A DNA stretch of 32,058 nt. Origin: Pirellulales bacterium (GTDB taxonomy: Bacteria; Planctomycetota; Planctomycetia; Pirellulales; Lacipirellulaceae). Below, one piece after another: positions 2,559-5,192 of the stretch (position 1 is its first letter; every line of letters begins with the position of its first letter). The notes beneath the pieces were generated by a model, which saw only the letters and a list, made by a program, of their open reading frames with translations, did no database searches and was not told the DNA's origin. Location: the NCBI GenBank assembly GCA_022448265.1, contig JAKVCC010000018.1, forward strand, positions 1 to 32,058, read 5' to 3'. A program made the position numbers and the translations under genes.

Positions 2559-3404
2559 CTAACGCACCGTTTGCAGATATTCCGCCAGTGTAAGCTCAGG
2601 GGTAGCCAAGCGTTTATGGAGTCGCTTGCTCAGTGTGGGCCCGCTGTTACCTTGGCTTAAATCGGCTAGGTAATCGGTAAGGAGCGATTGCCGATCATCG
2701 GCCGACTCCAAGAGGAAATAAACCCAAGCCCAGGATTCGGCGTAGTCCTCTTGGGTCATGTCTTCGGCAGAGGTGAGCTTTTCCAATCGAGCCAGATCGA
2801 ACGACTCACCCCTCCTGTCGCGGAGAAACTCAACGTGCGATTCATTGAGTCCATGCCGGCTGCGGGCGACCTCAAAGTATTCGGCTAATCCTTCATCGAG
2901 CCAAAGTGGCAGGTTGGGCACTGCCGCGTGAAGGTATCCATGGACGACTTCATGCCTTAGGTCTTCCGCGACGTGGTCGCCCCAATGCGCGTAGACCGAC
3001 AGGGCAATATTGGTTTCTACAAAAAGGGCCCGTCTGTTCATAAAACCGGGGAAATGAATTTGTAGGTAGTCGTAATACGCTGCTTTCTCCGCAAAGAGAT
3101 AGATATGAACCGGTTCCTCATTGGGCGTGAGGCCCAGCTTGAATTGCACCTGGTGGCGGGCAGCGACCAGGTCGTTGATGAGGCGGTGCTCCTGCGGCAG
3201 GGGGAAATCGCTGTGCAGCACCAACTGTCCGCGCACGATTTCGTGTTGGAAGGGGAGCGACTTGGTTTGGGTCAAGAGGGTTTGGCAGCCACACAAGGCG
3301 ATGCTGACCAGCCAAGAGCCAGCCACCCAGGTGGGCGATCGCCAAGGGCAAGTCGGCGCTCGGCCGATTGACGGAAAAATCGCCAGGGGTACTTGCCGTG
3401 GCAT
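2559..3404 (-). CDS. Putative lipoprotein with gluzincin-type HExxH metallopeptidase domain
   Basis: From the ATG at 3404 this is a 281-residue protein. A signal-peptide region (about residues 24-39, GSWLVSIALCG) ends in a lipobox-like LCGC, predicting lipidation at Cys40. The metallopeptidase motif RHEVVHGYLH (H151, E152, H155) is followed about 15 residues later by WLDEGLAEYFE, the usual position of the third zinc ligand (Glu) in gluzincin-like peptidases. This arrangement resembles DUF1570-type proteins common in planctomycetes, but I cannot confirm the family. An in-frame ATG at 3476 would add 24 residues; neither start has a good ribosome-binding site, and 3404 gives the better signal peptide. 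It is convergent with the GspF-like gene and divergent from the SelW-like gene. The substrate is unknown. Confidence 0.72.
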   Translation of the reverse strand: MPRQVPLAIFPSIGRAPTCPWRSPTWVAGSWLVSIALCGCQTLLTQTKSLPFQHEIVRGQLVLHSDFPLPQEHRLINDLVAARHQVQFKLGLTPNEEPVHIYLFAEKAAYYDYLQIHFPGFMNRRALFVETNIALSVYAHWGDHVAEDLRHEVVHGYLHAAVPNLPLWLDEGLAEYFEVARSRHGLNESHVEFLRDRRGESFDLARLEKLTSAEDMTQEDYAESWAWVYFLLESADDRQSLLTDYLADLSQGNSGPTLSKRLHKRLATPELTLAEYLQTVR

Positions 3405-3549
3405 CGGCTTGGGATTGACTGAATAGGGTTGGTGGTGACAAAAGGCGGACCCCCCACCCTTGCCGAAGCGCGGCATTGTAGCGATGGGCGTGGCATAGCC
3501 GAAGGTCAGTTTTTAGCGCACACGTGCAACGGGGCGCTGCGCATGTTAG

Positions 3550-3583: not shown

Positions 3584-3633
3584 GCGCGTTGGTTTGACTG
3601 GTCGCGACAGTGGGCCGCTGAAAGGAGCTACAA

Positions 3634-3849
3634 ATGAAGATTTCGATCGAATATTGCGTGCAGTGAAACTATTCTTCACAAGCCGTCAGTTTGGCGGATG
3701 CAATTGAAGGCGAGACGGGGGCGGAAGTCGCGTTGATCCGAGGTGGGGGTGGCATCTTCGACGTCAAAGTCGATGGCAAGCTCATTTATAGCAAACACGA
3801 CACGGGCCATTTTCCCACCGATGCCGAGATCCTCGCTGCGCTCGGCTGA
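3634..3849 (+). CDS. SelW-like Rdx-family selenoprotein (in-frame UGA read as selenocysteine)
   Basis: Reading from the ATG at 3634 through an in-frame TGA at 3664-3666 to the TGA at 3847-3849 gives 71 residues that match the Rdx (SelW/SelT/SelH-like) fold throughout. The start MKISIEYC-V-Q-U-NYSSQA puts the UGA exactly at the second position of the CxxC/CxxU redox motif (Cys8, Sec11). After it come the family hallmarks VALIRGGGGIFDVKVDG, then LIYSKHDTGHFP, then DAEILAAL. Rdx proteins are small thioredoxin-like oxidoreductases of uncertain substrate. A strong ribosome-binding site (AAAGGAG) lies seven bases before the ATG. A stop-respecting gene finder would miss or truncate this gene. A plain nonsense mutation is the alternative, but intact conserved sequence on both sides and the location of the UGA favour selenocysteine. 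It depends on selA, selB, selC and selD elsewhere in the genome. Confidence 0.85.
3682..3695 (+). promoter_or_regulatory. Candidate bacterial SECIS stem-loop
   Basis: Inside the SelW-like coding region, GCC (3682-3684) and GGC (3693-3695) form a short stem with the 8-base loop GTCAGTTT. The loop starts 18 bases after the UGA and begins with G. This fits the loose consensus for bacterial SECIS elements: a small hairpin roughly 16-37 bases downstream with a G among the first loop bases. The stem is only three clear pairs, so the structure supports the selenocysteine call but would not stand alone. Confidence 0.4.
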
Positions 3850-4046: not shown

Positions 4047-5192
4047 TCAATCTCGGTCCCGATGTTCCCTAATTAACGCATCCAGTTCGCTCTTGAGACG
4101 CGATAGGATTTCATCATACGGATATTGGCCCATCGCTTCGCTGCCCCGTTTGAGATTGACGTATTGCGGTCCGCACCAGAGGCCCAGGTCGGCGTCGTCC
4201 GTTTCGCCGGGGCCGTTGACGCGGCAGCCCATCACCGCGATGGTGATCGCATGCTCGGCCGCATAGCGGGTCATCTCTTTTACCTGCTCGGCCAGTTCGA
4301 TAAACGCTTCATTTTCCACGCGTGAGCAACTGGGGCAGCTGATGATATTTAGCGTGTCGAGTCCGTAGTCGACAACCGAACGGACTCGTCCCATTGCGAT
4401 ATCCGCGAGGATTTTTCGGCCGGCAACAATCTCTTCAGGCTTTCGGGGGTTCGACACGGTCAACGACACCCGAATCGTGTCGCCAATGCCGCGACTGATG
4501 AGCTGCTCGAAGGCTATGCGGGTCTTGATGACGCCATCGGGCGGCATGCCGGCTTCGGTCACACCCAGGTGGAGTGGTACTTCCGGTCGCTGTGCCGAAA
4601 AGCGTCGATTAACATCGATTACTTTTTGGGGATTGGAGTCCTTGAGCGACACGCAATAGCGCGTAAAACCTAGCTCGTCGAGGGCGGCACAATGTTCCCA
4701 AGCACTGTCGAGCATGGGACGGATCGTATCGTCCCCAGCATATTTTGTTTTTTTATCGGGATCAACGCTGCCACAATTGACGCCCACGCGCATCGCGCAG
4801 TCGTGGTCGGCAGCGACCTGTGCCAAATAGGCAACTTTTTCTTGCCAAGATTTTTGCCGTTCGTGGTGATAGAGGTGGCCGGGGTTGTAGCGAATTTTGT
4901 CTACATGCGGGGCTACCGCTTCGGCCAAACGGTAGTTTTCTTGCAAATCAATTGCAAGGTTGGCCTTGGTCTGCCGGCGAATCTCGGGCAGCGCGGCAGC
5001 GTCTTGATTGCTATCGACGGCGACCCGCACGACATCCGCGCCAGCGTCGGCGAGGTCGTTGATCTGTCCGACTGTAGCGTCAATATTCTTTGTCTGCGTA
5101 GCGGTCATGCTTTGCAGCGCAATCGGGTGGCCGGCGCCAATCTTAGCAGTGCCGATACGGACTTCACGGGTCGGATTGCGGTCGATATTCAC
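4047..5192 (-). CDS. ispG: 4-hydroxy-3-methylbut-2-en-1-yl diphosphate synthase (MEP pathway)
   Basis: IspG (GcpE) converts 2-C-methyl-D-erythritol 2,4-cyclodiphosphate to HMBPP in the isoprenoid MEP pathway, using a [4Fe-4S] cluster. The 381-residue protein has the typical N-terminus ([20 protein letters not shown]), the barrel segments [10 protein letters not shown] and KIRYNPGH, and the cluster-binding motifs [10 protein letters not shown] (C286, C289) and [11 protein letters not shown] (C323, with the glutamate that completes the cluster). The length matches the compact bacterial form, without the long insert seen in plant and some other enzymes. The start is GTG at 5190-5192, with GGAGG about a dozen bases upstream. 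It is the last gene of a minus-strand run, after a ~150-base gap from the CPBP protease gene. Function is very secure. Confidence 0.97.

Follow-up and report, generated by a model that had tools for sequence, protein, structure and literature searches.

A predicted SelW-like selenoprotein with an in-frame UGA at its redox motif in a Pirellulales bacterium

Does a UGA codon inside a small open reading frame (ORF) of a Pirellulales bacterium end translation, or does it specify selenocysteine (Sec)? The ORF lies at positions 3634 to 3849 on the forward strand of the window, the 32,058-nucleotide stretch of contig JAKVCC010000018.1 analyzed here. An earlier note on this DNA had described a frame of 71 residues behind a ribosome-binding site, with a UGA at codon 11 as its sole internal stop, and reading of the sequence bore out each of these points: when this TGA is read as Sec (U), the frame yields 71 residues followed by a stop, and no other stop occurs between the ATG and the terminal TGA (Table 1). 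We predict, with a probability of about 0.96, that the ORF encodes a SelW-like protein of the Rdx family in which codon 11 specifies Sec. SelW-like proteins have been recognized as a bacterial selenoprotein family for some twenty years, and the protein described here is a new, otherwise ordinary sequence within that known family.

Table 1. Positions of the features discussed, in the window or on contig C19 of the same genome
Feature	Position	Strand	Basis or remark
Ribosome-binding site AAAGGAG	3621-3627	+	6 nt 5' of ATG; sequence reading
Start ATG of SelW-like ORF	3634	+	Sequence reading
Cys8 codon TGC, first CxxU residue	3655-3657	+	Sequence reading; invariant in alignment of 26 sequences
In-frame TGA, codon 11, predicted Sec codon	3664-3666	+	Translation; TGA likewise in 72/92 Rdx loci including this one
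Putative SECIS-type upper stem-loop	3683-3697	+	Covariation, third-position pair test, mostly missing in Cys forms, bSECIS model
Terminal stop TGA of SelW-like ORF	3847-3849	+	Sequence reading
DUF1570/peptidase-like gene	2559-3476	-	Flanks SelW-like ORF
ispG/GcpE	4047-5192	-	Flanks SelW-like ORF on the other side
tRNA-Sec, anticodon TCA	C19 8522-8617	-	70.6 bits
Ndh-SelD fusion	C19 8849-11053	-	Profile match above cutoff
selB	C19 11157-13115	+	Profile match above cutoff
selA	C19 13152-14564	+	Profile match above cutoff

In a mechanically produced ORF list, the locus appears as a 52-amino-acid fragment with a TTG start (3691 to 3849) that contains no redox motif. The gene is plausibly unannotated; in epsilonproteobacteria, SelW genes have been reported as overlooked outright by annotation (PMC4607533). 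When the window was scanned for ORFs that continue through a TGA, carry a Sec-type motif, and extend at least 60 codons beyond that TGA, 17 candidates emerged, the SelW-like ORF among them. A search for a sigma-70-like promoter found none, and neither Rfam (at gathering thresholds) nor ARAGORN gave a match in the window.

The family assignment rests on profile matches obtained with C in place of U and of the final TGA. Residues 2 to 68 matched the Pfam family PF10262 (Rdx) with an E value of 6.7e-19 (68.3 bits; cutoff 22.6), and NCBIfam TIGR02174 was matched at 55.5 bits, above its cutoff of 34.2. The best NCBIfam match was the equivalog NF041051 (SelTWH_Campy), yet its 80.8 bits remain below the cutoff of 88, and the SelW-like protein is not filed under this equivalog. 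The UGA had been claimed to stand three residues after Cys8, at the redox position of Rdx proteins, and to be followed by conserved sequence in the same frame; the Rdx match agrees with both statements, extending over both sides of the TGA. This homology, together with 71 other loci that carry a single TGA at the corresponding motif position, puts the ORF far beyond chance. In an alignment of 26 sequences (A2), C8 is invariant and I5 and Y7 are nearly so, while identity of the SelW-like protein to its 25 relatives does not exceed 66%.

An AlphaFold2 model (with C for U; mean pLDDT, 95.4) has its first strand at residues 3 to 8, ending at Cys8, and its first helix at residues 14 to 28, with position 11 in the loop between them. 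The first structural match of the predicted fold was PDB 2fa8 (TM score, 0.92; rmsd, 1.0; 35% identity), and the TM score against mouse SelW (2npb) was 0.66. The model thus predicts, for the C-for-U sequence, a thioredoxin-like fold of the SelW family. The 2fa8 entry is Agrobacterium Atu0228, a "putative Selenoprotein W-related" protein that also matches in sequence (E value, 3.7e-08) but has a longer chain of 105 residues.

For comparison among relatives, 92 Rdx loci were assembled: a phylum sample of 392 genomes supplied 30, named genome contigs 32, and a set of 59 relatives 30, with the window gene included as L111. In this set, which consists of best-scoring or query-chosen rows and is not a random sample, the second motif position is TGA (CxxU) in 72 loci and Cys (CxxC) in 20. 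The TGA loci stem from several phyla, and the five best Rdx matches on named contigs belong to records labeled Planctomycetota, Phycisphaerales, Phycisphaerae, or Phycisphaeraceae, which agrees with a planctomycete source. None of the 72 TGA frames has a second TGA or any other stop; with the starts chosen, the TGA falls at residue 11 in 66 frames and at residues 10 to 17 in the remaining six. A tree of the 90 distinct proteins (80 columns), in which many forks are unresolved, places 19 of the 20 Cys rows in one separate subfamily (support, 100/99). The homologue comparison that the earlier note had proposed thus came out in favor of Sec.

Downstream of the UGA, at +17 to +31 (3683 to 3697), lies a candidate SECIS-type hairpin, CCGUC/AGUUU/GGCGG. 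It has 5 bp and a 5-nt loop, AGUUU, that begins 22 nt after the UGA and has G at its second position. The bSECIS model, as given in PMC13188914, describes a stem of 4 to 16 bp, an apical loop of 3 to 9 nt with G among the first two positions, and a distance of 16 to 37 nt from the UGA; the hairpin fits this shape, with a spacing of 21 nt between UGA and loop. The energy limit stated with the model is -7.5 kcal/mol or lower, and the folding energy here varies with the stretch folded (-10.8 for 3667 to 3712; -7.2 for 3664 to 3705), which makes energy the weakest side of the comparison with the model. Single-sequence folding after the UGA was no better than that of shuffled sequences (z scores of -0.34, -0.75, and -1.08 for 42 to 56 nt and +0.70 for 107 nt); for 3660 to 3715, the optimal fold is a structure different from the hairpin. 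Since folding of the single sequence carries no signal, the case for the hairpin rests on comparison across relatives.

In a set of 68 distinct sequences (A1), 90.3% of the alignment cells in the stem are paired versus 78.4% after shuffling, and both sides of a pair have changed in 30 cells versus 7.2, such changes occurring in four of the five pairs. The covariation score was 0.410, compared with 0.173 for shuffled alignments and at most 0.200 for slid versions; relatedness is kept by the slid control and is not kept by the shuffles. Without guidance, RNAalifold found the same stem, with an A-U pair added on top and the lowest pair omitted. At +18/+30, where both partners are third codon positions, 49 of 69 rows have a Watson-Crick pair; shuffling gave a mean of 27.3 such rows and never more than 44 in 20,000 trials. 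All five pairs are formed in 41 of 68 Sec rows versus 1 of 20 Cys rows, and paired cells number 307 of 340 versus 54 of 100, although this control is weak, since 19 of the 20 Cys rows come from a separate subfamily whose residues differ at these codons. The loop G alone fails to separate Sec from Cys forms, since G at +23 also occurs, from a Trp codon, in 19 of the 20 Cys rows. Of the 68 Sec rows, 54 have AGT or GGT as the loop codon (+22 to +24), although outside this position these ORFs use AGT less often than any other serine codon (16 times, against 93 for TCG, 79 for TCC, and 76 for AGC). Taken across these alignments, the pattern indicates that the hairpin is kept by selection.

The earlier note had called for a search of the same genome for Sec machinery, and this search was successful: selA, selB, selD, and a tRNA-Sec were found, each above its curated cutoff and all on contig C19 (Table 1). 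The selD frame of 734 amino acids combines a pyridine nucleotide-disulfide oxidoreductase domain with AIRS and AIRS_C domains. A CGGC precedes the AIRS domain and, judging from its place, is probably the SelD active-site motif, so that SelD looks Cys type. A CxxC-type Ndh-SelD fusion described in PMC2398784 has the same domain order and the same CGGC, and we saw no difference between the two. A second tRNA-Sec match, on contig C6 (47.7 bits, over the gathering score), was identified by ARAGORN as a tRNA-Leu and discarded.

Because the assembly is a draft in 87 contigs (completeness, 97.28%; contamination, 3.16%), both contigs were checked for their genus. The ispG of the window finds its best matches in the genus-mates G393 and G401 (86% identity); the other long matches are at 72 to 83%, among them the same-family genome G410, which ranks third (82%). 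The best matches of selB on C19 are the genus-mates G398 (56%) and G399 (54%), and GC contents are similar (0.573 for the window versus 0.551 for C19). By these comparisons, the window and C19 appear to fit one genus. In the selB alignment, a single TGA had been flagged in the gene of G433; it lies outside residues 5 to 643 of the aligned gene and was dropped.

Genomes with a TGA-containing Rdx gene also tend to carry selA. Among the 59 relatives, selA was above the cutoff in 17 of 17 genomes with TGA-Rdx, in 1 of 13 having only Rdx without a stop, and in 9 of 29 that lack Rdx. Of the 392 genomes in the phylum sample, 138 have an Rdx match bearing one internal TGA, and selA exceeded the cutoff (taken as an E value of 1e-80 or lower, which reproduces the tally of 239) in 125 of these versus 111 of 249 genomes without Rdx. 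The other 13 TGA-Rdx genomes are drafts, 59 to 92% complete; in G176, selA is narrowly under the cutoff, and G061 has a weak match. Five of the 143 genomes with Rdx show no TGA row among the matches listed: G004 and G340 have only rows without a stop, and the Rdx rows of G139, G169, and G291 are not among the matches listed.

A TGA at the place of a redox Cys could also arise by decay, as a single base change turns TGC or TGT into TGA, and Cys-type Rdx does exist (the 20 loci above); the ORF would then be a pseudogene. This is hardly credible when the same TGA recurs at the same place in loci of several phyla, each frame with that one TGA and no other stop. No frameshifts or additional stops were seen in the 72 frames, and both the covarying hairpin and the presence of selA in all 17 TGA-Rdx relatives argue against decay. 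The frame would likewise be open if UGA had become a sense codon in this lineage or were read through as another residue, e.g., Trp, to which we assign a similarly negligible probability. The SelW-like ORF itself terminates in UGA, and of 21 further ORFs inspected on C19 and in the window, 7 do so as well, including ispG and Ndh-SelD (selA and selB on C19 end in TAG). The tRNA with a TCA anticodon on C19 is a tRNA-Sec, and the combination of a Cys partner, selA, and the hairpin is the pattern that fits Sec.

A start farther downstream, at TTG 3691, where the mechanical 52-amino-acid ORF begins, would leave the upstream part untranslated. We regard this as very unlikely, if slightly less so than decay or reassignment: the product would have no redox motif, a ribosome-binding site stands at 3621 to 3627, and upstream residues are conserved in A2, with Cys8 invariant and Ile5 and Tyr7 nearly so. 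Sec at codon 11 is thus the favored reading, and the claim that this planctomycete decodes UGA as Sec is supported by the machinery, by the 72 frames with a single TGA, and by the covariation of the hairpin.

If codon 11 is decoded as Sec, it would be served in the cell by SelB carrying Sec-tRNA-Sec, with SelB presumably recruited by the hairpin at 3683 to 3697. Insertion of Sec would create a Cys8-x-x-Sec11 redox pair in a protein of ~8 kDa, and this pair would sit in the loop leading from the first strand to the first helix of the thioredoxin-like fold. Because of the CxxU motif, the SelW-like protein is most likely a thiol/selenol oxidoreductase; a redox role of the family has been deduced from the same motif (PMC1088965).

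This result is of low surprise, since SelW-like proteins are established and abundant in bacteria and the Sec machinery of planctomycetes has already been published. Reports of SelW-like proteins as a Sec-containing bacterial family include PMC1794560, PMC1088965, PMC2398784, and PMC13188914; the family tops the prokaryotic table given in PMC2398784, with 427 selenoproteins versus 56 Cys homologues, and very few or no Cys homologues were reported in Sec-containing organisms (PMC1794560). The protein described here shares the Pfam family PF10262, the CxxU position, and the SECIS-type hairpin with these bacterial proteins, and we found no substantial difference. For Campylobacter jejuni SelW, encoded on CJnc60, reading of UGA by tRNA-Sec and a full-length product detected by Ribo-seq and proteomics have been reported (PMC11955535). 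That protein is likewise small and UGA containing, and NF041051 is the best NCBIfam match of the window protein; however, C. jejuni belongs to another phylum, and its SelW has ~80 residues, compared with 71 in the window protein, which stays under the NF041051 cutoff.

Sec machinery and selenoproteins of planctomycetes are described in PMC4807772, the main text of which does not contain "SelW" or "Rdx". A thin literature search on SelW in planctomycetes gave, among the papers listed, PMC1794560 and a paper on Archaeplastida (PMC6627142), and the SelW and planctomycete terms sought are absent from PMC5029168 and PMC9312934. The spread of the SelW-like gene through the phylum may perhaps not be in print, which is a small point. 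Knowledge of selenocysteine is unchanged by the finding. What the analysis adds is confirmation of a gene that simple ORF calling truncates, from a lineage that commonly carries the family (138 of the 392 phylum genomes), and a clear comparative case in which compensatory changes, located at third codon positions, appear to maintain a SECIS-type hairpin.

The other selenoprotein families searched in this genome gave little. An FdhA profile search returned one weak match (C67:187749-188045; 40.9 bits versus a cutoff of 666.25), and the usual formate dehydrogenase selenoprotein seems to be absent from the draft genome; none of 12 AhpC-TSA matches had an internal stop. With a Cys-type SelD, FdhA below its cutoff, and AhpC-TSA without stops, it is tempting to suppose that, among the families searched, the SelW-like protein is the main, perhaps the only, reason for which the small genome has kept its Sec machinery, but we consider this unlikely.

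Two further placements were noted in the Rdx tree. The 20th Cys row, L028 (G340, 1501 to 1710), is nested in an otherwise Sec-containing group (100/96). It keeps one of the five stem pairs and lacks the loop G, and G340 has selA; this pattern is as expected if a switch from Sec to Cys had freed the hairpin. Another Rdx match occurs in G340, so that L028 may instead be a paralogue. The window SelW, for its part, stands apart from the copies of four genus-mates (L109, L114, L115, and L116) and groups weakly (91/43) with the Phycisphaeraceae sequence L058, a hint of gene transfer for which the support is too low.
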